IMG/VR virus record: IMGVR_UViG_3300006920_000095
Span: 1-39,086 of that record
Reading direction: 5' to 3' (one strand)
From: a virus
DNA length: 39,086 nucleotides
Part shown: in pieces, positions 24,265-39,086 of the stretch
Layout: each line of letters opens with the position of its first letter
Position numbering within the stretch: position 1 is the first letter of the stretch
Position numbers and translations under genes: made by a program
Notes under the pieces: model-generated
What the model was told of the DNA's origin: nothing
The model's database searches: none
The model's input: only the letters and a program-made list of their open reading frames with translations

Positions 24265-24330
24265 TTGACTCCACTCAAATATAACTTATAACTACTCCAG
24301 ACAAAATGAAGATTGAGAAGAAAGGTTCTT
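24265..24330 (+). pseudogene. collapsed 21-residue-repeat gene: promoter plus last eight codons
   Basis: The family promoter (TTGACT at 24265, then TATAACTACTCCAGAC) runs directly into the family's last codons (AAAATGAAGATTGAGAAG onward, MKIEKKGS and stop). In intact members at 29713, 31295, 32539 and 34649 the start region has TCCAGACATG, and in members at 29713 and 34649 the end region has TCCAGACAAAATG. The whole body is missing here between the two TCCAGACA copies, as expected of deletion across that short repeat. The residual eight-codon frame keeps an ATG and could still be translated. Confidence 0.75.
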
Positions 24331-24366
24331 GACCTTAACCGAAAAATACAGTAACCTCCAGTTGTT

Positions 24367-24633
24367 ATGAAAATCCCATTTACCCTACCAGACCTAACCG
24401 AACCAGACGAAACCGTAAGAGTTTATTTCCAAGGAAAACTTGTCAACCGATTCAATGAGCATAAATTCAACGAATTGCGACTACTCATTAAGCAGAATTC
24501 CACCGAAGGATTTTATATTAGATACACACCTGATCATGGTGTCATCCCGATTGAGTCCAATGGTAAACTGGATTACCCGCAAGGTCTTTTTCGCAAAAAC
24601 ACCGACACCCTCAGGAACCTCCTCCTTGGATAA
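24367..24633 (+). CDS. hypothetical protein, 88 aa
   Basis: Unrecognised small protein (MKIPFTLPDLTEPDETVRVYF). Promoter -35 at 24329, -10 TAACCT (24352-24357), 9 nt before the ATG. Its -35 overlaps the stop of the collapsed repeat gene. No domain visible. Confidence 0.6.
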   Translation: MKIPFTLPDLTEPDETVRVYFQGKLVNRFNEHKFNELRLLIKQNSTEGFYIRYTPDHGVIPIESNGKLDYPQGLFRKNTDTLRNLLLG

Positions 24634-24680
24634 TTCTCATCAAAACTTGACATTACTGAAAAATAAATTAAAATGGAAAC

Positions 24681-24860
24681 ATGGACTACAACATTATTGA
24701 ACAACACGGTGAGCTTACTCTCCGAAATCATCCCGACAATGACGCACAATCTCAATTTAGCGTTTATGCGGGTGAGTTTCATCTTGAGAGCTTTCGGAAT
24801 GTGAGCCACGCGATATATTTATATAACGCAATCTCAAGCATCCTGCCCAAAGAAAAATGA
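24681..24860 (+). CDS. hypothetical protein, 59 aa
   Basis: A short gene found from its promoter: TTGACA (24647-24652), 16-nt spacer, TAAAAT (24669-24674), 6 nt to the ATG. Product MDYNIIEQHGELTLRNHPDN..., ending SSILPKEK; it reads like a real small protein with a hydrophobic C-terminal helix. A competing frame at 24673 (43 aa) overlaps the -10 and is rejected. Confidence 0.6.
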   Translation: MDYNIIEQHGELTLRNHPDNDAQSQFSVYAGEFHLESFRNVSHAIYLYNAISSILPKEK

Positions 24861-24922
24861 TTTCAAAATAAAGTCGAATAAACATTGACCTAAACCCAAA
24901 AATATATTACCTTCCAGTCGTT

Positions 24923-26002
24923 ATGAGAAACCTAATCAACCAAACAACCGCAGAACAAATCGTCGATAAAGCCCAACGCACGTTCGGTAACTTCTACGGA
25001 ACCCCACTTGCGGAATCAATCGGAATCCCTCAACCCTATGTCTCCAAGCTTAAGAAGTTCATCAAGACTGGTGACAGGGAAGATCTCCCCCCACACGATA
25101 GCATCGAAAAGATGCTCAACTTCCTGAACGCCAACAATAAATCGGCACCGACACCGACAGGGGGTGATGACGATGGGGAATTTGGTGATGGTTCCTCGTA
25201 TAAAACCGACAGGGAGCTTCTCCATGACATCCAACTTCGCTTCCGCATGGCTGGAAAATCTTTGGAGGCAATCTTTGGAGGTGATCTTTCCGGTGTGATC
25301 CTCTCTGGACCAGCGGGTTGTGGGAAAAGCTTCAACGTTGAAAAGTATATCAATGAAGAGGTTTCACGCAATCCTGACACCAAATTCATGCATCTCAAGG
25401 GGGCTTCCATGTCATATACCGGACTCTATGAATTGCTTTATGATCACCGTGACGGTGGTGTGATCGTGTTTGACGATAGCGATTCACTTTGGGACGATGA
25501 GAACATGATGAATCTCATGAAAGCTGCCATGGACACAAGCAAGACCCGTTCACTTTCAACGGCTTCCGGTGGAAAGTGGGTTGCTGCACTCGCTGAAAAG
25601 CATGGGGTGGAGACCGACGAAATTCGCCAATTCCAATTCAAAGGAAAGATTGTCTTTATTACCAATAAAGATATCAATGGGTTGATCGAATCTAAGAAGC
25701 GGGGTTGGGAACATTTCAATGCTCTTGTGGATCGTAGCTTCTATATTGATTTGGAGATGTTCTCTCTCCGTGCCAAGCTCCTTTGGTGCGAACATATCTT
25801 CATGGACTTCATTGCCCCAGAAATGGAACTCTCGGATGATCTCACTTTGGAAATCATGGAATTTGTATCGGAAAATCGCCACAAGCTTCGTGATATTAGT
25901 ATTCGTGGTATTGAGACAATCGCACGGACTGCGAGTGAGAGTGCATTTAATGATGACTGGCGGGAGTTCATCTCCGTAACACGTTTCAAGCGCAATCAAT
26001 AA
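24923..26002 (+). CDS. AAA+ ATPase with N-terminal helix-turn-helix, 359 aa
   Basis: Walker A GPAGCGKSF (residues 129-137), Walker B VIVFDDSD (180-187) and sensor-1-like KIVFITN (242-248) define an AAA+ P-loop ATPase. Residues ~29-47 (LAESIGIPQPYVSKLKKFI) look like a helix-turn-helix, followed by an acidic Gly-rich linker (~75-92). The combination suggests a DNA-associated ATPase, such as a remodeller, but I cannot assign a specific role. Promoter -35 at 24885 with TACCTT 9 nt before the ATG; a terminator follows at 26021. By far the largest gene of the right arm. Confidence 0.75.
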   Translation: MRNLINQTTAEQIVDKAQRTFGNFYGTPLAESIGIPQPYVSKLKKFIKTGDREDLPPHDSIEKMLNFLNANNKSAPTPTGGDDDGEFGDGSSYKTDRELLHDIQLRFRMAGKSLEAIFGGDLSGVILSGPAGCGKSFNVEKYINEEVSRNPDTKFMHLKGASMSYTGLYELLYDHRDGGVIVFDDSDSLWDDENMMNLMKAAMDTSKTRSLSTASGGKWVAALAEKHGVETDEIRQFQFKGKIVFITNKDINGLIESKKRGWEHFNALVDRSFYIDLEMFSLRAKLLWCEHIFMDFIAPEMELSDDLTLEIMEFVSENRHKLRDISIRGIETIARTASESAFNDDWREFISVTRFKRNQ

Positions 26003-26020
26003 TAATATTTCATAACACCG

Positions 26021-26059
26021 AAAAACCTCCTCCTGATGAGTGTCAGGTTGGGGGTTTTT
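26021..26059 (+). terminator. rho-independent terminator
   Basis: AAAAACC...CCTGA pairs with TCAGG...GGTTTTT around a short loop, with a T run on the 3' arm; ends the ATPase gene. Confidence 0.75.
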
Positions 26060-26118
26060 CACTTTAATAGCAGAAAATTATTGACCTTATCCACAAAATA
26101 GATTAATCTGACCTTGTT

Positions 26119-26514
26119 ATGAAAAAGCAACCAATCGGAGAATTCAGGAAAAACACTGACCTAATGAAATTGAAATTCACTTCTCTTATGGAGGAGTTGG
26201 GTGGTGAGCGCATTTCACATTTCGCATATGGTGACGATACGTATCAATTTGAAACCAACCATTTGGGTAAATTGTTGGTTTCTTTAGACGTATCGGATGA
26301 TGTGAATTTTAGATCAATCTGGACCAATAGCCGATTCGATCAAAAACATATCTGGTCAGAATCGAGCAGATCTCTACCCCGCACTGCAAATGAGTATTCT
26401 GGGAAGTGGAACAAGTGCCACTTCCAGACCACTGGACATGATACTCTAAGCATCGATGATATAGAAGCCATTAAGACCGACATTCGTAATAATGTATTGG
26501 TGGCAATCGGGTAG
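26119..26514 (+). CDS. hypothetical protein, 131 aa
   Basis: Unrecognised; helical N-terminus (MKKQPIGEFRKNTDLMKLKFTSLMEEL) and an aromatic beta-rich middle (FAYGDDTYQFETNHLG). Promoter -35 at 26081, -10 TAATCT, 9 nt to the ATG; upstream TAATAGCAGAAA at 26065. No known domain. Confidence 0.6.
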   Translation: MKKQPIGEFRKNTDLMKLKFTSLMEELGGERISHFAYGDDTYQFETNHLGKLLVSLDVSDDVNFRSIWTNSRFDQKHIWSESSRSLPRTANEYSGKWNKCHFQTTGHDTLSIDDIEAIKTDIRNNVLVAIG

Positions 26515-26560
26515 AAAGGATATTGACTCAAACCCAAAAATAGATTAATCTGACCTTGTT

Positions 26561-26977
26561 ATGAAATTACACCTACCAGCAGTAAACGGCGGACCATTCA
26601 ACTGCCGTCCATTCGAAGTTATCGAAGTTGATGATTCCGACATCCTCTGTAATGACGTTACACTCCCTGAAGAGTTTAATCCACACAACGTTCGCCTATG
26701 GGTTATTAGGAACGGAACCTGTGTAATTTGCGTAGTGTGGGCATCTCATGAACAAAACGCCTTTGATATCATGGTTGACGAGTGGAAGGGTTGTTGTTTT
26801 TTGGTTGACGAAGAGGAGGAGGGTGTAGAATATGCCTATTTGGGTAATGCGGGTGAGTGTGCAAATTTAGAGTGTGCCGATATTCGGGAAGTGGAATTCA
26901 AACCATCCCGTGACTGGAAAGAGCTTTGTGCATTTGCGGAAGCAAGGGGTGGTCGCCAAGATACTTTATTTTCTTAG
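26561..26977 (+). CDS. hypothetical Cys-rich acidic protein, 138 aa
   Basis: Unrecognised; Cys in FNCRPF, ILCND, GTCVICVVW, GCCF and ANLECAD. Very acidic central run (DEEEEGVEYAY). No zinc motif is obvious. Promoter at 26523 is the model form TTGACT-N17-TAATCT, 9 nt before the ATG. Confidence 0.6.
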   Translation: MKLHLPAVNGGPFNCRPFEVIEVDDSDILCNDVTLPEEFNPHNVRLWVIRNGTCVICVVWASHEQNAFDIMVDEWKGCCFLVDEEEEGVEYAYLGNAGECANLECADIREVEFKPSRDWKELCAFAEARGGRQDTLFS

Positions 26978-27023
26978 CAGAAAAGAACTTGACTCAAACC
27001 CAAAAATAGATTAACTTATATCC

Positions 27024-27290
27024 ATGAGCAACAAATACCAGATCACGTCAAACACCTACTCTAAATTCTTCTCACACTCTGATGTGATCGGGGAAGTTGA
27101 GAAGCTGGAAGACGTTCCCGATTTCCTCCGCAACCTACAGACACCACGCTTCAAGGATTGTAAAGTGATTTCTTTCGAAATCGATACACCATATGACGCC
27201 GCCGATATCGCAATTTCCAAAGGAGGTGGCTTGGAAGTTTTTACTGTTCAACGCCCGAAAGACCTTGACTCAAACCCGAAAATAGATTAA
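27024..27290 (+). CDS. hypothetical protein, 88 aa, 3' end is the next gene's promoter
   Basis: Unrecognised small protein (MSNKYQITSNTYSKFFSHSDV...). Promoter -35 at 26989, -10 TAACTT, 6 nt to the ATG. Its last codons (KDLDSNPKID, stop TAA) are the DNA of the lysozyme promoter: the -35 and spacer are coding and the stop codon is the first half of the -10 TAATCT. Such total overlap suggests the C-terminus is unconstrained or the reading frame has drifted into the promoter. Confidence 0.55.
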   Translation: MSNKYQITSNTYSKFFSHSDVIGEVEKLEDVPDFLRNLQTPRFKDCKVISFEIDTPYDAADIAISKGGGLEVFTVQRPKDLDSNPKID

Positions 27291-27302
27291 TCTGACCTTG
27301 TT

Positions 27303-27929
27303 ATGAAACTGAAAACAAAAGCAATCACCGCTATTACCACATCAACCAGTCTGATTATGGGGCTTGTCATTTATGCGGAAAATGTGGAGGTGCAATCCCG
27401 CCAAACTCCGATTTTAGTAAAACCAAATATTACTCAATATACCACATTACCACTGTCGGTCAAACCAAAACCGAAGGTTGATTTCTATGAGGAGATGATC
27501 AAAGGGGTGAAATTCTACGAAGGATTTAGATCAAAGCCTTATTACTGCTGCGGAAAAGTAAAAACCATCGGGTATGGCTTCACAGATCCTAAAATTGTCG
27601 GGAGAGGTTATATCTCGGAAAAGGCGGCAGACAAACTCCTCCGAGAAAAACTCCAAAAACTCAGGATTGAGGTTTTGAAGAGAGTTGATGTTGAGGTGTC
27701 GGATTGCCAGATTGCCGCACTCGTAAGTTTCACTTTTAATACGGGGATTGGCAACCTCGAACAATTAATTGACCAAAAAGATCGACTCAATGACGGAAAT
27801 TATGATAGCGTAGTTGATGTCATGCCCCTATACCGAAAGGCGGGTGGAAAAATCCGAGAAGGATTGGTTCTTCGTAGGGCTTGGGAAGTTGAACTTTATA
27901 AGGGTGAAATTAATACCGAAAGATCTTGA
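27303..27929 (+). CDS. GH24 lysozyme, signal-anchor-release endolysin candidate, 208 aa
   Basis: Residues ~65-160 are a T4/P21-type lysozyme (YEGFRSKPYYCCGKVKTIGYGF, then a FTFNTGIGNL stretch). Catalytic spacing is E73, eight residues, C82, five residues, T88: the E-8-C-5-T triad of P1 Lyz-like endolysins, with Cys replacing Asp. Residues ~5-25 form a weakly hydrophobic, Ala/Thr/Ser/Gly-rich segment like a SAR domain that tethers the enzyme in the inner membrane until depolarisation. C83 and a later Cys (SDCQ) could form the inactivating disulfide. Promoter -35 at 27265. Degrades peptidoglycan for lysis. Confidence 0.75.
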   Translation: MKLKTKAITAITTSTSLIMGLVIYAENVEVQSRQTPILVKPNITQYTTLPLSVKPKPKVDFYEEMIKGVKFYEGFRSKPYYCCGKVKTIGYGFTDPKIVGRGYISEKAADKLLREKLQKLRIEVLKRVDVEVSDCQIAALVSFTFNTGIGNLEQLIDQKDRLNDGNYDSVVDVMPLYRKAGGKIREGLVLRRAWEVELYKGEINTERS

Positions 27930-27963
27930 CTCAACCCCAAATATAAACCACACTACTGCTGTC

Positions 27964-28044
27964 ATGCAAACCAGAATTTATTGGAGGAGCTTATGGTTGA
28001 AGAAAATGGAGATTAACCTTGCAATTTTGCATAAAACAGATTAA
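27964..28044 (+). CDS. possible 26-aa peptide or gene remnant
   Basis: ATG after a weak promoter (TTGACT 27926, CACACT). It encodes MQTRIYWRSLWLKKMEINLA and ends inside the next promoter. A rare Shine-Dalgarno-like GGAGGAGC-TT-ATG at 27982 begins a 7-codon frame. The stretch may be the remnant of a deleted gene. Confidence 0.3.
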   Translation: MQTRIYWRSLWLKKMEINLAILHKTD

Positions 28045-28056
28045 CTTACATTCGTT

Positions 28057-28380
28057 ATGAAAGACCTCACACCACAAACTGAGCAGGATATTTTGACCCT
28101 AGTTGAAACTCACATGGATGGCACCGTAGGGATGGAACATCTTAGCGTGTTCATGACTCATAGACAATCCATCGAGGTTCGCTCTATTCATAAAATGCAA
28201 CCCGAGAATATAGTGAGTAAGTTCGGGTTCTCTTCGGTCGAACAATGGAAAAAGGAAGCTATCCATGAGTGGAGCTATGACATTGCGGATTTGATCGACA
28301 AATTGGATCAAGAACTGGCTATTTATTTTGAACTCAATAGTGTCAACCCTTCAGGATTCACATTGATTATTGTAGAATAG
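28057..28380 (+). CDS. hypothetical protein, 107 aa
   Basis: Unrecognised; begins MKDLTPQTEQDILTLVETHMDG, helical, with a Trp/Ile-rich DIADLIDKLDQEL segment in the C-terminal half. Promoter TTGCAA (28019)-N17-TAACTT, 9 nt to the ATG. No catalytic motif. Confidence 0.6.
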   Translation: MKDLTPQTEQDILTLVETHMDGTVGMEHLSVFMTHRQSIEVRSIHKMQPENIVSKFGFSSVEQWKKEAIHEWSYDIADLIDKLDQELAIYFELNSVNPSGFTLIIVE

Positions 28381-28421
28381 CCCTTGACTTCTATTCAAAA
28401 ACAGATTAACTTACAGTCGTT

Positions 28422-28667
28422 ATGAAAGAAACCCACATTTGGCTAAACAACCTCCCGCTCTTCGTTACATGTCTCCCGAAAGGCAACAATTACAATATCC
28501 GTTACTTCCATCAGGATGGAGCAGGAGATGTTTTGGTGCATCTGGAGTATGACGATGAGGGTTTCAACCAAAGTCACTACGATAGCCATAGGGTGCGTTA
28601 TAGCGATACTCCAGATTTTCACCATTGTGTGAGTGTTGCCGTGTTCCAAGGGTCAAACGTAAAATAG
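28422..28667 (+). CDS. hypothetical His/Asp-rich protein, 81 aa
   Basis: Unrecognised; MKETHIWLNNLPLFV then several His (YFHQDGAGD, HYDSHRVRY, DFHHCVS), which may bind metal but form no known motif. Promoter -35 at 28384, TAACTT, 9 nt to the ATG. Confidence 0.55.
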   Translation: MKETHIWLNNLPLFVTCLPKGNNYNIRYFHQDGAGDVLVHLEYDDEGFNQSHYDSHRVRYSDTPDFHHCVSVAVFQGSNVK

Positions 28668-28708
28668 TCCTTGACTCAAACCCAAAAATATATTATCTTC
28701 CAGTCGTC

Positions 28709-29365
28709 ATGAAAACACTTAGTTACATTATCGAAAACGGAAAACGAATCAAAACCCCTACTCCTCTGTATGATAGTTATCACCAAACCGTATGGATTGC
28801 TGGTAAAATCCCAAAATATCATTATGACAATGCGGTTTGGTCATATGATGGGCGCAAACGGAAGTTGATATCTAAGGCATCGGGAGTGTTGTATGTCCCC
28901 CGTGATTCGAGATTGGTTATAATCGGAGGTGTTGATACCATCGTCCCTAAAGATTATTTGAGCAAAGTTTGCGTCGAATGCTACTGGACAGACCCTTCCC
29001 GTGGCTACTCTATAAAACTCGTTAAAGGGTTCTTGCACGTCAAAACGTCAACTCACGGGAAAACTAGGAAAAAGGTCTTGACAGGTGCGCTTTTAAAGAA
29101 ACGAGCAGATCGTGCTGCTAGGATTGCATCATCGGAATTTGATGAACTGGCGAGTAAATGCACACGAATTGTGTCACCCTATCAGATTTCCCGAAGCGTT
29201 GGAAATTGTAGCGTTGGAACGAATCGATTCCTAGATAAGCTTTTTGAGAATTGCAAAAATAGACCCAAGGAATTGGCAGTCAACGTTATTTGGCGTTTGG
29301 CTAGAATTAAAAGGATGAGTTGCAATATGGATTTTAAACGCGCAACTAAAATGGCATTAGTGTAA
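28709..29365 (+). CDS. hypothetical basic protein, 218 aa
   Basis: Unrecognised, strongly basic, one of the larger array genes. N-terminal half beta-rich (MKTLSYIIENGKRIKTPTP), C-terminal half Lys/Arg helices (VLTGALLKKRADRAARIAS, NVIWRLARIKRM). A nucleic-acid-binding role is possible from charge only. The frame opens upstream at 28625 but that part is promoter; TATCTT ends 9 nt before the ATG at 28709. Confidence 0.6.
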   Translation: MKTLSYIIENGKRIKTPTPLYDSYHQTVWIAGKIPKYHYDNAVWSYDGRKRKLISKASGVLYVPRDSRLVIIGGVDTIVPKDYLSKVCVECYWTDPSRGYSIKLVKGFLHVKTSTHGKTRKKVLTGALLKKRADRAARIASSEFDELASKCTRIVSPYQISRSVGNCSVGTNRFLDKLFENCKNRPKELAVNVIWRLARIKRMSCNMDFKRATKMALV

Positions 29366-29410
29366 ATAGTCCTTGACTCAAACCCAAAAATATATTATCT
29401 TCCAGTCGTC

Positions 29411-29668
29411 ATGAGCATCTCCAACAGAAGAAACCCCGTCCGCTATATCCTCGAAGAATCCGTTACCGAATCCACCACTTTTCAGGTGGTGAAGGGGGGT
29501 GTCACATTTGCGCTAGTCTTCCACCTGAATTGGTTGCCGGAAGATCACGTTCACTTTAACCGATGGTGTATCGTTGATCTTAGGAGCGACCCTAATGGTG
29601 TTCAACATTCAATCCAAGAGACATTCCTTGATGCTAAAGATGTCATTAAAGAGGAGTTCGTCAACTAA
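29411..29668 (+). CDS. hypothetical protein, 85 aa, ILEES near N-terminus
   Basis: Unrecognised. MSISNRRNPVRYILEESVTES: residues 14-17 (LEE|S) resemble the candidate prohead-protease motif of other proteins here, but its promoter is the early type (-35 at 29373, TATCTT 9 nt before ATG), so the match may be chance. The rest is a small beta-rich domain (VTFALVFHLNWLPEDHVHF). Confidence 0.55.
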   Translation: MSISNRRNPVRYILEESVTESTTFQVVKGGVTFALVFHLNWLPEDHVHFNRWCIVDLRSDPNGVQHSIQETFLDAKDVIKEEFVN

Positions 29669-29712
29669 TAACCTCGACCCCAAACCAAATATAACTTATA
29701 ACTACTCCAGAC

Positions 29713-30237
29713 ATGAAAAACAACGAAACAATTGCACAATTCCTGAAAATCACTAAATTTCCTTTCATCATCCTTGATGATAACGGCAACGAAACCTATC
29801 ATGAAAATTCCTCTGGTTATTGGTCCAAACGAGGATATGATTCATCAGGCAACGAAACCTATTATGAAGATTCCTCTGGTATTTGGGTCAAACAGGAATA
29901 TGATTCATCAGGCAACAAAACCTATCATGAAGATTCCTCTGGTTTTTGGATCAAAAAGGAATATGATTCAGCAGGCAACAGAACCTATTATGAAAAATCC
30001 GATGGTCTTTGGGTCAAACGAGGATATGATTCAGCAGGCAACATAACCTATCATGAAGATTCCGATGGTCTTTGGGTCAAACAGGAATATGATTCATCAG
30101 GCAACGAAATCTATTATGAAGATTCCTCTGGTATTATCACCGACAACCGCCCAAAAACAACCATTTATTGGGAGGAGATTTCCGAGAAATTCGGAATCGA
30201 TCCAGACAAAATGAAGATTGAGAAGAAAGGTTCTTGA
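29713..30237 (+). CDS. 21-residue-repeat protein 1, 174 aa, six units
   Basis: N-terminal cap (IAQFLKITKFPFII), six units of about 21 residues (model YDSSGNETYYEDSSGIWVKQE, split by variants), then a cap with NRPKTTIYWEEISEKFGIDPDKMKIEKKGS in shorter pieces. Each unit has GN, TY/IY, an acidic pair and a Gly-x-Trp-x-Lys. The pattern suggests a beta-repeat structure, reminiscent of YD or MORN-like repeats, but I do not recognise the family. Units are 63 bp. Promoter -35 (TCGACC) at 29674, TATAAC 10 nt before the ATG. Its stop TGA lies inside the next -35. Confidence 0.75.
   Translation: MKNNETIAQFLKITKFPFIILDDNGNETYHENSSGYWSKRGYDSSGNETYYEDSSGIWVKQEYDSSGNKTYHEDSSGFWIKKEYDSAGNRTYYEKSDGLWVKRGYDSAGNITYHEDSDGLWVKQEYDSSGNEIYYEDSSGIITDNRPKTTIYWEEISEKFGIDPDKMKIEKKGS
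29776..30141 (+). repeat. 63-bp coding repeats
   Basis: Six tandem units of about 63 bp with near-identical nucleotide sequence, the basis of the 21-residue repeats of the protein at 29713. Boundaries approximate. Confidence 0.8.
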
Positions 30238-30288
30238 CTCAAACTCGAAAATACAGTAACTTAAACACCTAGCCGAAAAACAAATATT

Positions 30289-30687
30289 ATGTCAACACGA
30301 TCCAGCATTTCACTGAAAAACTCCGAAGGTCAATTCGAAACAATTTACTGTCACAGTGACGGTTACCTTGAACATAATGGGAGAATTCTTCTCGAATATT
30401 ACACCACCTATGAGGATGTTAAGAGACTCATGGAACTAGGAGACTTGAGTCTCTTGGCTAAGAACCTCTACCCCGATCCAGCAGTAATGCATCGTTTCGG
30501 GAACGAGCAAGATGGTGTTTGTGTGGCATATGGTCGGGATAGGCGTGAGGTGGGAACTGAGGCACAAATCACCACCACTATCGGGTGTGAACAGGAGTAT
30601 AATTACGTATTCCAAGATGGCGTGTGGTCTTATTTTACAGATAGTGTTAATAATAAGACCACACTCACGCCCGAAAATGTTATGTAA
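30289..30687 (+). CDS. conserved phage protein of MSTRSSI type, 132 aa
   Basis: Opens MSTRSSISLKNSEGQFETIYCHSDGY (in two parts: MSTRSSISL, IYCHSDGYLEHNG), followed by a YTTYEDVKRLMELGDLSLL stretch. I recall this as a common, uncharacterised phage and bacterial family without a known function. The promoter at 30234 (TTGACT-N17-TAACTT) is unusual because 26 nt separate it from the ATG, forming an A-rich leader ending ACAAATATT. Confidence 0.65.
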   Translation: MSTRSSISLKNSEGQFETIYCHSDGYLEHNGRILLEYYTTYEDVKRLMELGDLSLLAKNLYPDPAVMHRFGNEQDGVCVAYGRDRREVGTEAQITTTIGCEQEYNYVFQDGVWSYFTDSVNNKTTLTPENVM

Positions 30688-30694
30688 AAATTCA

Positions 30695-30732
30695 GAATTC
30701 CCGCCATCAGTTAGGGGTGGCGGGAATTCTTT
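30695..30732 (+). terminator. terminator-like hairpin
   Basis: Perfect 11-bp stem GAATTCCCGCC with GGCGGGAATTC and a short T tract; ends the gene at 30289. Confidence 0.7.
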
Positions 30733-30734
30733 CA

Positions 30735-31029: not shown

Positions 31030-31248
31030 ATGATTGACCGAATCAAAACCGCCATCTACAATTACAGAGTCAAGAGGCTTGCACAACTCCTACGGATTAG
31101 GAGAGCTTATAACACCATGGATTATATTAACGAGGTGACCAAAGGCGGAATTGCATTGACTTATAACTCCAAAGGTGAGCAGATTCGCGAGTTGAGTCAC
31201 CGCAAGATGAAACACACTCCGAAAGATTGGACCGAAAAATATATTTAA
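31030..31248 (+). CDS. hypothetical basic protein, 72 aa
   Basis: MIDRIKTAIYNYRVKRLAQLLRIRR..., a basic helix followed by GGIALTYNSKGEQ and a Lys/Trp end. Starts 8 nt after the possible 18-aa frame and has no own promoter visible, so it probably shares a transcript with it. Function unknown. Confidence 0.5.
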   Translation: MIDRIKTAIYNYRVKRLAQLLRIRRAYNTMDYINEVTKGGIALTYNSKGEQIRELSHRKMKHTPKDWTEKYI

Positions 31249-31294
31249 ACAATCGTTGACTCAAACTCGAAAATAACTTATAACTACTCCAGAC

Positions 31295-31690
31295 ATGAAA
31301 GACCAAACAATTGCACAATTCCTAAAAATCACCAAATTTCCTTTCATCATCCGTGATGATAACGGCAACGAAACCTATCATGAAAATTCCTCTGGTTATT
31401 GGATCAAAAGGGAATATGATTCATCAGGCAATGAAATCTATCTTGAAAATTTCTCTGGTTATTGGGTTAAAAAGGAATATGATTCAGCAGGCAACATAAC
31501 CTATTTTGAAGATTCCTATGGTTTTTGGATCAAAAAGAAATTTGATTCATCAGGCAATGAAATCTATCATGAAAATTCCTATGTTTATATGATTGACAAA
31601 CGCCCAAAAACCACAATCACTTGGGAGGAGATTTCCGAGAAATTTGGAATCGATCCAGATAAAATGAAGATTGAGAAGAAAGGTTCTTGA
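31295..31690 (+). CDS. 21-residue-repeat protein 2, 131 aa, four units
   Basis: Same architecture as the protein at 29713 with four units. The last repeat is degraded (HENSYVYMIDK in place of an EDSSGIITDN ending). N-terminus starts MKDQTIAQF. Promoter -35 at 31256, TATAAC 10 nt before the ATG; its stop TGA overlaps a TTGACT at 31687 that lies before the tRNAs. Confidence 0.75.
   Translation: MKDQTIAQFLKITKFPFIIRDDNGNETYHENSSGYWIKREYDSSGNEIYLENFSGYWVKKEYDSAGNITYFEDSYGFWIKKKFDSSGNEIYHENSYVYMIDKRPKTTITWEEISEKFGIDPDKMKIEKKGS
31355..31600 (+). repeat. 63-bp coding repeats
   Basis: Four tandem 63-bp units within the gene at 31295. Boundaries approximate. Confidence 0.75.
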
Positions 31691-31711
31691 CTCAAACCGA
31701 CATAAATTCAT

Positions 31712-31794
31712 GGCAGTGTGGCGTAATTGGTAGCCGCTACGGATTTAAAATCCGTTGGTCTTAGACCGTGCAGGTTCGACTCCTGTCACTGCTA
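31712..31794 (+). tRNA. tRNA-Leu (TAA)
   Basis: Acceptor GGCAGTG/CACTGCT, anticodon stem ACGGA/TCCGT with loop TTTAAAA (TAA), long variable arm (TTGGTCTTAGACCG) as in type II tRNAs, and T stem GCAGG/CCTGT. CCA is not encoded. Confidence 0.9.
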
Positions 31795-31801
31795 CTTTAA
31801 A

Positions 31802-31877
31802 GCACTCATAGCTCAATTGGAAGAGCAACGCCCTTCTAAGGCGTAGGTTTCAAGTTCAAGTCTTGATGGGTGTGCCA
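31802..31877 (+). tRNA. tRNA-Arg (TCT)
   Basis: Acceptor GCACTCA/TGGGTGT, D stem GCTC/GAGC, anticodon loop CTTCTAA (TCT), T stem TCAAG/CTTGA, encoded CCA. Seven nt after tRNA-Leu, probably cotranscribed; reads AGA, a codon useful for AT-rich genes. Confidence 0.9.
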
Positions 31878-31889
31878 AACTTTACCAAT

Positions 31890-31940
31890 AATAAACCTCG
31901 ACAATTCAACGAAAACCAGCTAACTTAACTTTGTTATGAA
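31890..31940 (+). repeat. 51-bp exact direct repeat, copy 1
   Basis: The promoter and first codons of the gene at 31936. An identical 51-bp copy lies at 32270-32320. Confidence 0.9.
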
Positions 31941-32274: not shown

Positions 32275-32320
32275 ACCTCGACAATTCAACGAAAACCAGC
32301 TAACTTAACTTTGTTATGAA
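32270..32320 (+). repeat. 51-bp exact direct repeat, copy 2
   Basis: Identical to 31890-31940; serves as the promoter and start of the gene at 32316. Confidence 0.9.
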
Positions 32321-32492: not shown

Positions 32493-32538
32493 AAGATTCT
32501 TGACTCAAACTCGAAAATAACTTATAACTACTCCAGAC

Positions 32539-32934
32539 ATGAAAGACCAAACAATTGCACAATTCCTAAAAATCACCAAATTTCCTTTTAAAATCAAGGA
32601 TGATAACGGCAACGAAACCTATCATGAAAATTCCTCTGGTTATTGGATCAAAAGGGAATATGATTCATCAGGCAACGAAATCTATTTTGAAGATTCCAAT
32701 GGTTATTGGTCCAAACGAGGATATGATTCATCAGGCGACCAAACCTATTTTGAAGATTCCGATGGTTATTGGTCCAAACGAGGATATGATTCAGCAGGCA
32801 ACGAAACCTATTTTGAAACCTCCAATGGTATTATCACCGACAACCGCCCAAAAACCACGATTTCTTGGGAGGAGATTTCCGAGAAATTTGGAATCGATCC
32901 AGATAAAATGAAGATTGAGAAGAAAGGTTCTTGA
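32539..32934 (+). CDS. 21-residue-repeat protein 3, 131 aa, four units
   Basis: Fourth-unit family member with repeats ending ...GYWSKRG and last unit ...ETSNGIITDNRP. Conserved caps as in the others. Promoter -35 at 32500, TATAAC 10 nt before ATG. The C-terminal EISEKFGIDPDKMKIEKKGS is nearly identical to paralogues. Confidence 0.75.
   Translation: MKDQTIAQFLKITKFPFKIKDDNGNETYHENSSGYWIKREYDSSGNEIYFEDSNGYWSKRGYDSSGDQTYFEDSDGYWSKRGYDSAGNETYFETSNGIITDNRPKTTISWEEISEKFGIDPDKMKIEKKGS
32599..32845 (+). repeat. 63-bp coding repeats
   Basis: Four tandem 63-bp units in the gene at 32539. Boundaries approximate. Confidence 0.75.
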
Positions 32935-32968
32935 CCTAAACTCAAATATATGCTACCTTGTCTTTGAC

Positions 32969-33421: not shown

Positions 33422-33433
33422 TAAATATTGTGC

Positions 33434-33468
33434 ATTAACTCGGAAAAACAAAGAAATTCCGAGTTAAT
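33434..33468 (+). other. perfect 12-bp inverted repeat without T tail
   Basis: ATTAACTCGGAA pairs perfectly with TTCCGAGTTAAT around an 11-nt A-rich loop; downstream is CCCCAAAA, not T residues, so it is not a classical terminator. It could be an RNA-processing or protein-binding site. Confidence 0.7.
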
Positions 33469-33519
33469 CCCCAAAATCGCATTGACACCACCGCAAAAAT
33501 AAACTATATTGATCTCGTT

Positions 33520-33780: not shown

Positions 33781-33787
33781 TCAAATC

Positions 33788-33868
33788 ATGATAATCCTAG
33801 CAATACTAGCAATCCCCATCGCAATCATGGTGTGGTATGCCTTCATCATCCTTTCCAGTTGGTTCTAA
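33788..33868 (+). CDS. 26-aa single-span membrane peptide
   Basis: MIILAILAIPIAIMVWYAFIILSSWF is split here: MIILAILAIPIAIMVWY then AFIILSSWF. It is almost wholly hydrophobic, with Pro in the middle, and would insert in the inner membrane. It begins 7 nt after the stop of the gene at 33520 and 11 nt before the next ATG, so it is probably coexpressed. Could modulate the lysis system or host membrane; unproven. Confidence 0.6.
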   Translation: MIILAILAIPIAIMVWYAFIILSSWF

Positions 33869-33879
33869 AAATAACTACT

Positions 33880-34299
33880 ATGACAACAGAAAAATTAATC
33901 CGAGATGCCTTTCTTGCCGGTCAACTCTTCGCAGAGGATCAACGCAAAGAATTCAATTTCCGACCCAACCCCCACGAATATACCATAGAAAAGCTAAAAG
34001 AGCTTGACTCAACGGGGGTGGCTCATCAGGCAACCGAAATTAAATTATTGACTTGTAAGTATGAGGGTGGCGATAATGAGATAAATATTTTGGACGGTGA
34101 TAAAGTGGTCCATACGCTAGTCTATACTAAAGCGGGTTGGTCGGATGGTTGTAATGTTTTCGCCTATAAGACGTGGGCGGTCGAGGCGTTTAGGTGTAAC
34201 TGGGAAGCGTTCCTCAATAGTTTACCGGAATATAAACGAGGTGTTATAGTCAAAGTTGAGGATATGATTGAAGGCTCTATACTGGTTGATACAGAATAA
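33880..34299 (+). CDS. hypothetical protein, 139 aa
   Basis: Unrecognised; MTTEKLIRDAFLAGQLFAEDQ..., then a beta-rich Trp/Tyr-containing region (WSDGCNVFAYKTWAVEAF). The open frame from 33832 overlaps the membrane peptide, so the ATG at 33880 is chosen. Followed by a perfect inverted repeat at 34299. Confidence 0.6.
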   Translation: MTTEKLIRDAFLAGQLFAEDQRKEFNFRPNPHEYTIEKLKELDSTGVAHQATEIKLLTCKYEGGDNEINILDGDKVVHTLVYTKAGWSDGCNVFAYKTWAVEAFRCNWEAFLNSLPEYKRGVIVKVEDMIEGSILVDTE

Positions 34300-34335
34300 T
34301 TTTGTCACGAATCACCCCTCAACTTGTGACAAAAT
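34299..34335 (+). other. perfect 10-bp inverted repeat
   Basis: ATTTTGTCAC and GTGACAAAAT around a 17-nt loop, starting at the stop codon of the preceding gene. A possible terminator-like or protein-binding element; no strong T tract. Confidence 0.65.
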
Positions 34336-34387
34336 AACCAAGATAAAACTCGACAAACAACCAAAAATTTAATACCTTACAGGAGTT

Positions 34388-34606
34388 ATGAAAGCACTCA
34401 CTTACGAAGAGAAGGACGCAAAGAGAACATTCATCGAATGGGACGGTTTTAACTGTATCATGATTGGAACCATTTCTGAGGCGGGAATCCTCAGACGTTG
34501 CGATGGATGCATTGTTTCCCGTTTCAACGGGATGGAGATAAGGGAACCTTCCGAGGAGAGAGCTTTGGAACATGCCATGACCGGAAAATGGCTTTTTGAC
34601 ATTTAG
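34388..34606 (+). CDS. hypothetical protein, 72 aa
   Basis: Unrecognised; MKALTYEEKDAKRTFIEWDGF, with a Cys-containing CDGC segment. Promoter -35 TCGACA at 34350, TACCTT 9 nt before ATG. The AGGAG just before the ATG is too close (2 nt) to be a normal Shine-Dalgarno site. Confidence 0.6.
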   Translation: MKALTYEEKDAKRTFIEWDGFNCIMIGTISEAGILRRCDGCIVSRFNGMEIREPSEERALEHAMTGKWLFDI

Positions 34607-34648
34607 ACATTGACCTTAACTCGAAAATAGAATATAACTACTCCAGAC

Positions 34649-35299
34649 ATGAAAAACAACGAAACAATCGCTAAATTCCTGAAAATCACTAAATTTCCTT
34701 TCATTATCCTTGATGATAACGGCAACAAAACCTATCATGAAAAATCCGATGGTTTTTGGTCCAAAAAGGAATATGATTCAGCAGGCAACAAAACCTATTA
34801 TGAAAATTCCTCTGGTTATTGGATCAAAAAGGAATATGATTCATCAGGCAATGAAATCTATCTTGAAAAATCCGATGGTTTTTGGATCAAAAAGGAATAT
34901 GATTCATCAGGCAATGAAATCTATCTTGAAAATTCCTCTGGTTTTTGGATCAAAAAGGAATATGATTCATCAGGCAATGAAATCTATCTTGAAAATTTCT
35001 CTGGTTTTTGGTCCAAACAGGAATATGATTCATCAGGCAACATAACCTATTTTGAAGATTCCTATGGTTTTTGGATCAAAAAGGAATTTGATTCATCAGG
35101 CAACGAAACCTATTTTGAAAATTCCTCTGGTTATTGGTCCAAACGAGGATATGATTCATCAGGCAACGAAACCTATTATGAAGATTCCAATGGTATTATC
35201 ACCGACAACCGCCCAAAAACAACAATCACTTGGGAGGAGATTTCCGAAAAATTTGGAATCGATCCAGACAAAATGAAGATTGAGAAGAAAGGTTCTTGA
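34649..35299 (+). CDS. 21-residue-repeat protein 4, 216 aa, eight units
   Basis: The longest family member, eight 21-residue units. Adjacent units are almost identical (three successive YDSSGNEIYLE units), consistent with recent duplication. Caps: MKNNETIAKFLKITKFPFII and PKTTITWEEISEKFGI through MKIEKKGS. Promoter TTGACC at 34610, TATAAC 10 nt before ATG. Length differs from paralogue 1 by exactly two units (42 residues). Stop TGA lies in the next gene's -35. Confidence 0.75.
   Translation: MKNNETIAKFLKITKFPFIILDDNGNKTYHEKSDGFWSKKEYDSAGNKTYYENSSGYWIKKEYDSSGNEIYLEKSDGFWIKKEYDSSGNEIYLENSSGFWIKKEYDSSGNEIYLENFSGFWSKQEYDSSGNITYFEDSYGFWIKKEFDSSGNETYFENSSGYWSKRGYDSSGNETYYEDSNGIITDNRPKTTITWEEISEKFGIDPDKMKIEKKGS
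34712..35210 (+). repeat. 63-bp coding repeats
   Basis: Eight tandem 63-bp units in the gene at 34649; copies near the middle are nearly identical. Boundaries approximate. Confidence 0.8.
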
Positions 35300-35329
35300 C
35301 TCAAACTCGAAAATACAGTAACCTCCGGC

Positions 35330-35608
35330 ATGACAGATGAAAAAGAGCAAGAGGCGGCACTCGAATTGGCTTGCGAGGGTGTGATGATGTCGAAACGCAA
35401 AAAAAATTTGGTTCATGCTTTAGCTCATCATTGGTATTGTGATAGAGCATGCCAATCCGAAATCCTCAAGCGAGAAAAGACCAGTGCAAACACTCTTGAC
35501 TTTCTGCTGAATAGCGGAGTTCTTAAGAAATACGCTGATTTATATTTTGGAGAAACATCAACTCTTGAATTCCGAACGGGAAAGCGTTCAACCCGTGGAC
35601 GATATTAA
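35330..35608 (+). CDS. hypothetical basic protein, possibly winged-helix, 92 aa
   Basis: Unrecognised; contains SEILKREKTSANTLDFLLNSGVLKKYADLYFG, which reads like a helix-turn-helix/winged-helix (two helices then a strand), and a basic tail (TGKRSTRGRY). A DNA-binding regulator is possible. Promoter -35 at 35296, TAACCT only 5 nt before ATG, so leaderless. Confidence 0.6.
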   Translation: MTDEKEQEAALELACEGVMMSKRKKNLVHALAHHWYCDRACQSEILKREKTSANTLDFLLNSGVLKKYADLYFGETSTLEFRTGKRSTRGRY

Positions 35609-35659
35609 TACCCAAAACCTCTTGACTCTACCCAAAAAATAAACCATACTACCGCTGTT

Positions 35660-35833
35660 ATGAATATCAAAAAGATCGAAACCGCCACAATCACCGATGC
35701 AAGAGAGTGGGCAAATGATACAGAAAAAACCCTCTTTTGTCTTGACTTCCTTGAAGAAGGCTCCATTGACACCGAAGGGTTTGATGACGCCCAAGATGAA
35801 CTGGAAAACAAATTTGAGATGCTTTTAGCTTAA
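35660..35833 (+). CDS. small acidic protein, 57 aa
   Basis: Short gene found from its promoter (TTGACT 35622, CATACT, 9 nt to ATG). MNIKKIETATITDAREWANDTEKTL... acidic and helical. Function unknown. Confidence 0.6.
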   Translation: MNIKKIETATITDAREWANDTEKTLFCLDFLEEGSIDTEGFDDAQDELENKFEMLLA

Positions 35834-35873
35834 AACATCTTGACTCAACCCAAAAAATAAACTAGACTCCGGC

Positions 35874-36323
35874 ATGGCTAACAAAAAGCAACTCACCTCC
35901 AACTCAATTTTCCAAATCTCAAGAGAACGTGGATGGAATTATATCGGGGATTGTAATATTGAACACGGGGGATATTTCTGGAAATGGACTGGCGAGGAGA
36001 AAGAAACCGCCAAAATTATCAGAGTTTCTTTCATTGACGACTGCGAACTTTTGGAGATTGAACAGGGGCAAGTCGATATCCCTGAAGGTAAGCAAGAGCA
36101 AGACAATTGTCTTTCAACTTGTGGTTGGGAAGGTGAATGGAGTGAAGATGGTGAAGAAACCCTTCTCAGCATCTCACAAAGCGGGGATGAGATTAGCGGG
36201 GATTCCCTCAAAGATTACCTTCTCGACTCTAAAATCGCAACGTGGGGAGTTTGTGGCGATTGTGAGACAACTCACGACGAAGAAAAACTCCTCGAAAGGT
36301 TGGAAGAAATTCTGAATTATTAG
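35874..36323 (+). CDS. hypothetical acidic protein, 149 aa
   Basis: Unrecognised; very acidic with Trp in GGYFWKWTGEE and a Cys pair in GVCGDCETTH. Promoter -35 at 35840, TAGACT 5 nt before the ATG. No catalytic motif; high acidity could suggest a DNA mimic, but nothing supports that specifically. Confidence 0.6.
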   Translation: MANKKQLTSNSIFQISRERGWNYIGDCNIEHGGYFWKWTGEEKETAKIIRVSFIDDCELLEIEQGQVDIPEGKQEQDNCLSTCGWEGEWSEDGEETLLSISQSGDEISGDSLKDYLLDSKIATWGVCGDCETTHDEEKLLERLEEILNY

Positions 36324-36371
36324 CAAACAGAGCTTGACTCCCTCTCGAAAATATATTAACATACAAAAGTA

Positions 36372-36590
36372 ATGACAGCAAAACAACAGCAAGAAGTCTC
36401 ACAACTCACTGTGGCGGGTGATACTCATGCCAAAATGGCATTAATGCAAGAGGAACATGGAAACACGAAGCTTGCCGAGGATTCACGGAGGCTTTCTGCA
36501 AACCGCTATCTTGCCGCAAGATATCTGAAAGACTTCCCCGAAGTTGGGATCGTTGCCGCCATTGATTATGCGGACACTCAAGAGGTTTAA
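36372..36590 (+). CDS. hypothetical helical protein, 72 aa
   Basis: Unrecognised; heptad-like helix (MTAKQQQEVSQLTVAGDTHAKMALMQ). Promoter -35 at 36334, TAACAT 9 nt to the ATG. Function unknown. Confidence 0.6.
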   Translation: MTAKQQQEVSQLTVAGDTHAKMALMQEEHGNTKLAEDSRRLSANRYLAARYLKDFPEVGIVAAIDYADTQEV

Positions 36591-36647
36591 AATAATAACC
36601 GAAAGACATTGACAGTAACTCGTAAAAAGGTTACTATCTTTTCAGTT

Positions 36648-36863
36648 ATGAGAATCCCAACGATCCAATGCTCCACACCCTCCGGTTTCATGAATATTAG
36701 GAAATATAAGCGGGAGGGTAATATTGTAAGGATCAAGGACTGGATCAATGCGGGGAGCTATCAGGCTTTGCCTAGTGGAACGACTCATGAAGAGATGAGC
36801 TTGGCAGACGCTAGGGAAGACTGGAAAAAGCGCGTTTCCGGCGGTTATACTAGAACCGCATAA
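36648..36863 (+). CDS. hypothetical basic protein, 71 aa
   Basis: Unrecognised; begins MRIPTIQCSTPSGFMNIRKYKREG. The frame is open from 36609 but that part is promoter; TACTAT (36632-36637) lies 10 nt before the ATG. Arg/Lys-rich throughout. Confidence 0.55.
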   Translation: MRIPTIQCSTPSGFMNIRKYKREGNIVRIKDWINAGSYQALPSGTTHEEMSLADAREDWKKRVSGGYTRTA

Positions 36864-36916
36864 TAAGTTAAAAAGACATTGACTCAAACTCAAAAATATA
36901 TTACCTTACAGAAGTA

Positions 36917-37246
36917 ATGAGACAGGAACACAAATGGGTAGGTTACGGTAAGGATAATATTAAGATTTTCCGAACGATTAAGGAAATTCCGAGCCAAGCT
37001 GGAATTGGTATTGTCCCCCTGCGGATAAATTTCGGAATATATGGTATTCAATACGCCCTCGCTCATGGGGATAGAATTCAATTGAAGGATGAATCTTGGG
37101 CTGAAGTTTTCAAAGCAAGGTTAGTAACTCACGGTCTTGTCATTGGACCTTGGGATGCAGAAGCGGCAAAGAATAGCGATTGTTACTTGGAATGGCGAGG
37201 GGCTTTTCACGATAGGTGTCTGGAAAAGCTTGGTCTTAATAAATAA
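36917..37246 (+). CDS. hypothetical protein, 109 aa
   Basis: Unrecognised; a Gly-rich beta core (IPSQAGIGIVPLRINFGIYGIQYALAH) and a helical end. Promoter -35 at 36879, TACCTT 9 nt before ATG. The TAATAAGTTAAAAAGAC sequence before this and the next -35 is conserved. Confidence 0.6.
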   Translation: MRQEHKWVGYGKDNIKIFRTIKEIPSQAGIGIVPLRINFGIYGIQYALAHGDRIQLKDESWAEVFKARLVTHGLVIGPWDAEAAKNSDCYLEWRGAFHDRCLEKLGLNK

Positions 37247-37299
37247 TAAGTTAAAAAGACATTGACTCAAACCAAAAAATACAGTAAATTGTCCCTGTT

Positions 37300-37866
37300 A
37301 TGAAAACCATCTCAACCGAAAACCACTCTTACTCTGAACTCTCCGACTCTGCAAAAGAAGTGGCAATCCAGAATCTTATCACCCAAAAAAGCGAAGATCC
37401 CTATGAAGTTGATGGGACATCCGAAGAGTGTCTCGACTCACTTAAGGCTATTGCGGAAGCTTTTAACGTCAATATCATTGATTACTCATTTGGCCCTTAT
37501 AGCCAAGGTAACAAGGTGAAAATCGATGATTGGAATGATCATGAGGATTCCTTGAATACACTTTTGCGGGTTTTGATTCAAGGTGGATATGAAACACACA
37601 AGGATTTAAGTAAAATGGCAGAAAAAGAAAACTTCCCCGGTCACTGCCCTTTTACTGGAGTTTGTTATGACGAAGATATTATTGAGTCAATCACAAAATC
37701 AATCATTATTGACGGGAATGATCTCAGAACGGCATTTGATCAAGTCGGCGATTTGATTAGAAAGATCTTGGAAAAAGAAATTGAGTATGCCCAATGTGAG
37801 GAATATATCAAGGAAGAACTCGACGAAGATGAAGAAATGTTCCTCAGTGATGGTGAGATTTATTAA
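37300..37866 (+). CDS. phage family protein with YSELS...AKE opening, 188 aa
   Basis: Opens SYSELSDSAKEVAIQN and later has GHCPFTGVCYDEDIIESI, both features of a widespread, uncharacterised phage family. The C-terminal half is helical and very acidic (EYIKEELDEDEEMFLSDGE). Promoter -35 at 37262, TAAATT 9 nt before ATG. Confidence 0.6.
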   Translation: MKTISTENHSYSELSDSAKEVAIQNLITQKSEDPYEVDGTSEECLDSLKAIAEAFNVNIIDYSFGPYSQGNKVKIDDWNDHEDSLNTLLRVLIQGGYETHKDLSKMAEKENFPGHCPFTGVCYDEDIIESITKSIIIDGNDLRTAFDQVGDLIRKILEKEIEYAQCEEYIKEELDEDEEMFLSDGEIY

Positions 37867-37914
37867 TAGCAGAAACCTCTTGACCTTAACAACAATCTAA
37901 ACTAGACTCCCGAC

Positions 37915-38217
37915 ATGCCCAACCGCCAAAAAACTTCTCTCCGTCATTCAATCCAATCTCTCCGCAATCGTTGGGGTAAACTCATAGACGCTTCTAATCG
38001 GGAAGTCAATCTTGTCCTTCGAATGATCGAAGACGACCGAAAAGTCTCTATGGAGACATCTTGGCGGGATACCAGCTGGCAGGATGCCAAAGATGGACAT
38101 ATGAGGATTTCCAAGAGAATGTTGAAACTTGCTGAAAAATTAGCTCGACAACACAACGAATTTGTGAAAGACTACAATATTTGGGTAATGCCTAGCATGA
38201 AACTTTCTGAAATTTAA
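37915..38217 (+). CDS. hypothetical basic helical protein, 100 aa
   Basis: Unrecognised; Arg/Lys-rich helices (HSIQSLRNRWGKLIDASNREV, RISKRMLKLAEKLARQHNEF). May bind nucleic acid. Promoter -35 at 37880, TAGACT 6 nt before the ATG; TAATAGCAGAAA 16 nt upstream of the -35. Confidence 0.6.
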   Translation: MPNRQKTSLRHSIQSLRNRWGKLIDASNREVNLVLRMIEDDRKVSMETSWRDTSWQDAKDGHMRISKRMLKLAEKLARQHNEFVKDYNIWVMPSMKLSEI

Positions 38218-38264
38218 TAGCAGAAAGACATTGACTCAAATCAAAATCTATACTAATATCTGGC

Positions 38265-38417
38265 ATGACAACTAAAGAAGCGGTTCAGGCAGTTCTATTC
38301 GAAATGGCAAGTGAGCGGAGATGCATGCCTTCTAGAATCTTAGATGAAGCAAAAGTCAATCACCTTGTCAAAAAAGACATTTCCGACCGCGTTCAAGCTT
38401 TGTTAAAAAAGGGCTAA
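38265..38417 (+). CDS. small protein, 50 aa
   Basis: Found from its promoter (TTGACT 38231, TAATAT, 5 nt to ATG). MTTKEAVQAVLFEMASERRC...; two helices joined by a short turn, resembling a small helix-turn-helix. Function unknown. Confidence 0.6.
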   Translation: MTTKEAVQAVLFEMASERRCMPSRILDEAKVNHLVKKDISDRVQALLKKG

Positions 38418-38458
38418 AAAGACATTGACTCAACCTCAAAAATATAGTAACCTCCGGC

Positions 38459-38695
38459 ATGCCTAAAACAAATCAGTGCAAAACGCTCTCCGACTACAAC
38501 GCTTATTTCAAGATGCTTGACGGGAAGATTGAAAAGATTGACTCCGACTGCTCCGCAATCTCATTCCCACCTACGGATAAGAATCAGGATCGATTCTACC
38601 TTAAGAGAGAGCAAGGGGGATTCTTTCACAATATCCAATGTAATAAAGAAGGGGAGCTTGTGATTTTCTGGAAACAAGAATCGGGAGTAGAATAA
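38459..38695 (+). CDS. hypothetical protein, 78 aa
   Basis: Unrecognised; MPKTNQCKTLSDYNAYFKML..., beta-rich C-terminal part (GELVIFWKQESG). Promoter -35 at 38425, TAACCT 5 nt before ATG. Confidence 0.6.
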   Translation: MPKTNQCKTLSDYNAYFKMLDGKIEKIDSDCSAISFPPTDKNQDRFYLKREQGGFFHNIQCNKEGELVIFWKQESGVE

Positions 38696-38743
38696 TAGCA
38701 GAAAGACATTGACTCAAACCACAATTTAACCTAGTATATCCAC

Positions 38744-38941
38744 ATGAGCAACCCAAACGAAAAACTAAGCACGGAAGAGATGAACAAAAGGGGGGAGGAA
38801 ATGGCGCGGGTTTTTCGACTCAAAAAGGTGAAAGGCTACGATCCACCACGTTTCGAGACCACTCACGGAAATAAGACCGGACAAGGAATTTTCTTGACTG
38901 CCAAAGGAGCTATTGACGGTGAGAATGATTTCCTCATTTAA
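38744..38941 (+). CDS. hypothetical protein, 65 aa
   Basis: Unrecognised; basic middle (MARVFRLKKVKGYDPPRFE). Promoter -35 at 38709, TAGTAT 6 nt before the ATG. TAATAGCAGAAA starts 16 nt upstream of the -35. Confidence 0.6.
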   Translation: MSNPNEKLSTEEMNKRGEEMARVFRLKKVKGYDPPRFETTHGNKTGQGIFLTAKGAIDGENDFLI

Positions 38942-38992
38942 TAGCAGAAACCTCTTGACCTCAACTCAATAATATATTAACTTATAGCAGTA

Positions 38993-39086
38993 ATGAGCAA
39001 ACCGACAACCAACCTTGAAATTCTCATGGAAGCATTCCGAAAGAATTGGGATCTCTTCTCAAATCTTAATTTGGATGATCCTTTCG
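38993..39086 (+). CDS. partial hypothetical protein, runs off the window
   Basis: MSKPTTNLEILMEAFRKNWDLFSNL... continues past the end. Promoter TTGACC (38955)-N17-TAACTT, 9 nt before the ATG. Too short to identify. Confidence 0.55.
   Translation, partial: MSKPTTNLEILMEAFRKNWDLFSNLNLDDPF

Follow-up and report, generated by a model that had tools for sequence, protein, structure and literature searches.

Leaderless messenger RNAs (mRNAs) are known, and leaderless late messages occur in Thermus phages. In Actinobacteria and Deinococcus-Thermus, leaderless genes have a TANNNT element ~12 nucleotides (nt) before the start (PMC3160421, PMC12340547). Cluster O mycobacteriophages such as Corndog have the sigma-70-type promoters PL1, PR2 and PL2, which are predicted to start on the first codon (PMC4351075). 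Cluster K mycobacteriophages have a start-associated 13-bp sequence, GGGATAGGAGCCC, with the potential to pair with ribosomal RNA (PMC3203893), and halovirus HF2 carries promoters in intergenic repeats ahead of many of its genes and makes long read-through transcripts (PMC8707807). Here an array of promoters lying directly ahead of start codons is described in IMG/VR virus record IMGVR_UViG_3300006920_000095. The whole 39,086-base record was analysed and is called the window. Judged from their sequence, the elements are well supported as promoters with a transcription start point (+1) no more than a few nt away from the ATG. We consider it very probable that early genes and some of the late genes are expressed from near-leaderless mRNAs, which we regard as the best reading of the window.

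The array resembles the bacterial TANNNT genes in that the -10 adjoins the start codon, Shine-Dalgarno (SD) sites are missing, and +1 is predicted at the start codon. In the bacterial type the -10 begins ~12 nt before the start; in the array, gaps of 5–10 nt between -10 and ATG were found at 28/37 starts. Unlike those genes, the window elements have a strong -35 at 17 nt, a bimodal gap and a 3-nt leader that begins with G, and they precede most genes of a phage array. As in cluster O, the predicted start of sigma-70-type phage promoters is the first codon itself, but ~30 promoters are found here versus three there, no late counterpart was described there, and the phage is of a different type. 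Cluster K likewise has short repeats just upstream of many start codons. There GGGATAGGAGCCC has an SD complement just before the start; the window elements are promoter hexamers, and no SD core was found upstream of any window start. HF2 shares the repeated intergenic promoters ahead of many genes and the read-through, but it is an archaeal virus with archaeal promoters, and both sequence and machinery differ. The open-access literature yielded no phage described with early-type and late promoters both under a rule of 0- or 3-nt leaders. While leaderless mRNA is known, this version of it appears to be new.

The promoter array and its predicted leader lengths

The whole window contained 39 matches to TTGAC-N18-21-TAnnnT, a ~5-fold excess over shuffled sequence (mean 7.3, maximum 14). 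When a following open reading frame (ORF) was also required, the reversed-sequence control gave 0 matches. To avoid circularity, a weight matrix was trained on 20 sites from G001 only, a 71.8-kb IMG/VR contig that was the single relative found (capsid 69% identical to the window capsid), and was then applied to 37 array starts of the window. A significant promoter was identified at 30/37 starts, and 28 of these were placed 5–10 nt before the ATG. The initial annotation, which had claimed such promoters before nearly every ATG of the array, was therefore right in its central point. The gaps at the 30 significant sites were 4 nt (1 site), 5 nt (4), 6 nt (4), 9 nt (19), 10 nt (1) and 26 nt (1). 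Five other starts have weaker variants of the element 9–10 nt before the ATG, namely TTGCAA at 28057, a TATAAC -10 at 31295, 32539 and 34649, and TCGACC/TATAAC at 29713. All array sites are oriented toward their own genes. Counting the same distance in related phages had been suggested as a check. Among TTGAC..TAnnnT sites with an ORF within 80 nt downstream, the gap was 5–10 nt in 27/33 window sites and 18/21 G001 sites, compared with 53/191 in other IMG/VR contigs after removal of the selecting site.

The spacer had been suspected of carrying further information, and it does contain a conserved block, AAAATA at spacer positions 9–14 (1.3–1.8 bits in the window), which may be a polymerase contact. 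The AATA part is also conserved in a second array-bearing contig, G004, and more weakly in G001. The likeness among copies extends past the hexamers and takes in bases upstream of the -35, and 28 of 33 spacers are distinct. Clonal copying was considered as the source of the conservation and found not to be sufficient, with 30/33 promoter cores distinct.

SD cores were defined as AGGA, GGAG or GAGG within -18 to -4 of the start. They were observed at 0/73 window genes and 4/110 G001 genes (chance 4.5), compared with 32/54 T4 genes (chance 7.5). That ordinary SD sites are almost absent, as first noted, is thus borne out. With its early-type and several of its late promoters set so close to start codons, the phage appears to have given up ordinary ribosome-binding sites.

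The gap between -10 and ATG is quantised. One class lies at 9 (sometimes 10) nt and the other at 5–6 nt, with 7–8 nt scarcer. Among sites with gaps of 8–10 nt, all 20 in the window have G at ATG-3, compared with 9/46 other genes (p=2.5e-10), and the same base is found in 13/14 sites of G001, 11/14 of G002 and 11/15 of G003; in one lineage the first leader base is A instead. The six bases between the -10 and the leader G are variable. In gap-10 sites the G remains at ATG-3 while its distance from the -10 is not fixed, and because its position is tied to the ATG rather than to the -10, leader length is implicated. A start 7 (or 8) nt past the -10 predicts a one-codon leader, GUU, GUC, GUA, GAC, GAU or GCC, and the same rule places the predicted +1 of the gap 5–6 class on the A of AUG. 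Most window sites are therefore predicted to have a 3-nt GNN leader and are not strictly leaderless, with zero leader predicted at gap 5–6. Pooled over six contigs, 46 sites had a gap of 6 nt, 19 of 7 nt, 11 of 8 nt and 72 of 9 nt. With the 8th base as +1, a 7-nt gap is still compatible with a leaderless message, which places the true dip at predicted leaders of 1–2 nt. Each contig found by pattern had been picked by one or a few of its 9-nt sites, a number too small to produce the gap distribution. The original expectation of a +1 at or within ~4 nt of the ATG holds as a prediction and is narrowed to a leader of 0 or 3 nt.

Putative late promoters of the T4 type

The window comes from a T4-like myovirus, as judged by genes for the Gp23 capsid (9720-11249, E 9e-76) and a gp15-type tail sheath stabiliser (2719-3984, minus strand, E 7e-13). 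G001 adds the T4-type portal gp20 (3e-61), an ATP-dependent DNA ligase and a Dda-like helicase. T4-type late promoters are read by the gp55 sigma factor and the sliding clamp, and their box sits about one helical turn ahead of +1. The phage shares the TATAAATA late box with T4, where the box is 8 bp long and starts at -13 (PMC2988020). Since the T4 box spans -13 to -6, a 5-nt gap predicts +1 on the A of AUG. Beyond the coordinates first annotated, the window has 4 late boxes (at most one mismatch) exactly 5 nt before an ATG, and G001 has 12; they occur on both strands. The same search for exact boxes over 49 kb of T4 gave distances of 14–28 nt, mostly with visible SD-like sites; the window boxes at 5 nt have no SD.

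The four window boxes at 5 nt are TATAAATA at 2464..2476 (ATG 2477) and 8755..8767 (ATG 8768) on the plus strand, and CATAAATA at 16998..17010 (ATG 16997) and the one-mismatch TATAATTA at 3802..3814 (ATG 3801) on the minus strand. TATAAATA also lies 6 nt before ATG 12927 (12913..12926, plus strand) and, with a GAT leader, 8 nt before the minus-strand ATG 21439 (21440..21455). One-mismatch matches 8 nt before 29713, 31295, 32539 and 34649 are early-type elements and were excluded from the late class. The strongest argument that position relative to the start codon is the selected feature is that a second, differently recognised promoter class follows the same rule.

Array members, transcription units and neighbouring genes

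All array promoters are on the plus strand and, unless noted, were identified with the weight matrix. A gap of 9 nt with leader GTT was found at 24329..24366 (gene 24367), 24885..24922 (AAA-type ATPase gene, 24923-26002), 26081..26118 (gene 26119), 26523..26560 (gene 26561), 27265..27302 (phage lysozyme gene, 27303-27929), 28384..28421 (gene 28422), 33482..33519 (gene 33520) and 37262..37299 (gene 37300). The same gap and leader occur with variant hexamers at 31898..31935 and 32278..32315 (both TCGACA/TAACTT; genes 31936 and 32316), 34350..34387 (TCGACA/TACCTT; gene 34388), 35622..35659 (CATACT -10; gene 35660) and, weakly, 28019..28056 (TTGCAA/TAACTT, p=0.04; gene 28057). Other leaders at gap 9 are GTC at 27926..27963 (CACACT -10; ATG 27964), 28671..28708 (ATG 28709) and 29373..29410 (gene 29411), GTA at 36334..36371 (gene 36372), 36879..36916 (gene 36917) and 38955..38992 (ATG 38993), and GAC at 32931..32968 (ATG 32969).

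A gap of 10 nt was found with leader GTT at 36609..36647 (ATG 36648), and with leader GAC ahead of four repeat genes. In three of these the -10 is TATAAC, at 31256..31294 (p=0.05; gene 31295), 32500..32538 (p=0.04; gene 32539) and 34610..34648 (p=0.05; gene 34649). The fourth, a weak TCGACC/TATAAC at 29674..29712 (gene 29713), was read directly and is not significant by the matrix. Promoters predicted to be leaderless have a gap of 6 nt at 24647..24680 (16-nt spacer; gene 24681), 26989..27023 (gene 27024), 37880..37914 (gene 37915) and 38709..38743 (gene 38744), and of 5 nt at 35296..35329 (gene 35330), 35840..35873 (gene 35874), 38231..38264 (gene 38265) and 38425..38458 (gene 38459). The promoter at 30234..30288 (gene 30289) is the exception with 26 nt. 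Outside the array, an array-type promoter with gap 9 and leader GTT lies at 18754..18791 (plus strand), and sigma-70-type promoters with gap 6, predicted to be leaderless, lie at 12574..12608 (plus strand; gene 12609) and at 383..417 on the minus strand (gene 38-382).

The initial annotation needs correcting at 24265, at 30289 with its 26-nt gap, and at 31030 and 33880, which have no such promoter. The segment 24265-24335 is an apparent decayed copy of a repeat-gene promoter fused to the gene's last codons (ATGAAGATTGAGAAGAAAGGTTCTTGA), and the ATG downstream of it would be the tail of a lost repeat gene. The four tandem-repeat paralogues (29713-30237, 31295-31690, 32539-32934 and 34649-35299) consist of ~20-residue units (like GNETYHEDSSGYWSKRGYDSS) in differing copy numbers and have near-identical upstream regions. 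Two of the four were tested against Pfam and gave no match. Repeat-gene TGA stops lie inside the TTGAC of the next -35-like element, at 30230-30240, 31684-31694, 32927-32937 and 35292-35302.

The idea that each gene is its own transcription unit was not upheld. A pattern scan of the array found no forward-strand intergenic terminator and 5 minus-strand matches, below shuffle counts. Two forward-strand terminator-like hairpins were missed by the scan, one at 26020-26060 (-24.5 kcal/mol) and one of 15 bp at 30694-30730 (-26 kcal/mol). Both fold far better than shuffles, and they are the only two strong breaks in the array. Since a terminator is missing between most genes and the promoter that follows, read-through should produce overlapping transcripts.

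Three transfer RNA (tRNA) genes are present in the window. Those for Leu-TAA and Arg-TCT lie within the array (31712-31877) behind a truncated promoter-like sequence (TTGACTCAAACCGACATAAATTC). The protein encoded at 23413-24261 has an I-TevI-type DNA-binding module near its C-terminus and is perhaps a homing endonuclease relative. The protein at 22227-23261 has collagen-like repeats followed by ~260 residues of unknown type.

Distribution, alternative explanations and implications

Comparable arrays were found in three other groups of large-phage contigs from IMG/VR. G002, G003, G005 and G006 form one group with GNN leaders. In G004, 27 sites have a 6-nt gap and 12 have a 9-nt gap, the latter mostly with ACT leaders; G486 has 8 sites at 6 nt. 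With >50 promoters 4–10 nt before ORF starts, the 51.7-kb phage contig G004 (L148-L150) has the densest leaderless-type array seen. rIIA genes occur in G003 and G004. The exact promoter patterns of the window were found in no other contig, and the array region had no match at the DNA level among known phages. When proteins of the window were compared with those of the L131 (G002 group) and L090 (G004) regions, no similarity was found. The layout is therefore probably recurrent rather than derived from one recent ancestor, with distant shared ancestry of these large phages still conceivable. The nearest named protein relatives are cyanophages for the capsid (~30%) and jumbo phages for the ATPase (29%), and those of the lysozyme, DNA ligase and rIIA are all <45%. 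These relatives are remote and therefore name no host. A search of viral contigs for ATPase relatives found none.

A genome scan with the promoter pattern pointed to an Akkermansiaceae assembly, in which some chromosomal genes have a promoter 6–10 nt before the ATG; twelve other genomes with single hits had no array. In unselected contigs of four Verrucomicrobiota genomes, 44 promoter sites lay within 12 nt of an ATG versus 41 at 13–60 nt, with the excess at 6–12 nt. A first count had indicated a gap-9 GTY rule in a Verrucomicrobiota genome. Its contigs were partly chosen for hits, and the rule vanished with unselected contigs. In Akkermansia muciniphila, 10% of starts are leaderless by Cappable-seq (PMC4782308), and the species is among those listed as SD-scarce (PMC10783764). 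These observations make Verrucomicrobiota a candidate host group only. They also bear on the view that the phage has copied its host's ordinary gene layout and that nothing in it is phage-specific, a view that concerns origin and overlaps the best explanation. The promoter excess and the Akkermansia data favor it. The window capsid was found in 0/388 Verrucomicrobiota genomes, an empty result that says little, and the strict gap-9 GNN pattern is missing from those chromosomes. We regard such copying as a possibility, though somewhat doubtful.

Two other explanations dispute how the elements work. The promoters could be real while the bulk of the protein comes from long transcripts that read through or were initiated upstream, the closeness to the ATG reflecting the packing of small genes. 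The few forward terminators make read-through likely, but packing alone predicts neither peaks at 6 and 9 nt with a dip at 7–8 nt, nor a fixed G at ATG-3, nor a matching rule for late boxes on both strands, and a long mRNA would have no SD sites for translating its internal genes. This explanation seems unlikely to us. We give still less credence to the idea that these repeats serve not as promoters but in regulation or recombination at gene starts, for example as operators or gene-cassette joints. The likeness of the copies beyond the hexamers and the near-identical upstream regions of the repeat paralogues would suit it, but conservation is highest in the -35 and -10 hexamers at 17 nt and in the AAAATA block, and most spacers differ. 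Moreover, phages without detected protein similarity keep the hexamers and spacing and not the remainder, and all array sites face genes.

Several observations weigh against near-leaderless expression itself. The +1 was predicted from Escherichia coli and T4 geometry, which may not be that of the host, and the starts used in the SD counts were picked mechanically as the first ATG. Gene 30289 has its 26-nt gap, starts 31030 and 33880 have no such promoter, and the region upstream of the capsid gene is A-rich without a late box at 5 nt. In the unselected Verrucomicrobiota contigs gaps of 6–9 nt were about equally common and the GNN rule was absent, so the rule may not be a general host property.

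If expression is near-leaderless, the array elements would be sigma-70-type promoters (TTGACt, ~17 nt with the AAAATA block, TAnnnT), and the host RNA polymerase would most likely transcribe from them early in infection; the timing of both classes is presumed. Transcription would start on a purine 6–8 nt past the -10, making the mRNA 5' end either the A of the start codon or one extra GNN codon (mostly GUU, GUC, GUA or GAC) before AUG. For some late genes, TATAAATA promoters would be placed with +1 at the A of AUG. Transcripts may cross several genes, each promoter giving a fresh 5' end for its own gene. Without SD pairing, the ribosome (70S, or 30S plus initiator tRNA) would recognise an AUG that forms the 5' end or follows it by one codon. 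We infer this translation step from known leaderless initiation, and because bacterial ribosomes are known to initiate in this way, no special translation system would be needed. More tentatively, and with some doubt on our part, a T4-like lineage may have moved its early and much of its late expression to 0- or 3-nt leaders, with GNN as a distinct exit-site (E-site) codon context for initiation in which ribosomes loading at the end stay in frame; several unrelated large phages whose hosts are not SD-dependent would have reached the same solution.

Almost every gene of the array, and part of the late genes, seem made for translation with no leader or a one-codon leader, and they offer a dense natural set on what the ribosome needs at the mRNA 5' end. 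The rule of 0 or 3 nt makes a precise prediction that can be tested. Gene finders that depend on SD sites can assign wrong starts in such phages. The near-leaderless layout may help to link environmental phages to SD-poor hosts.

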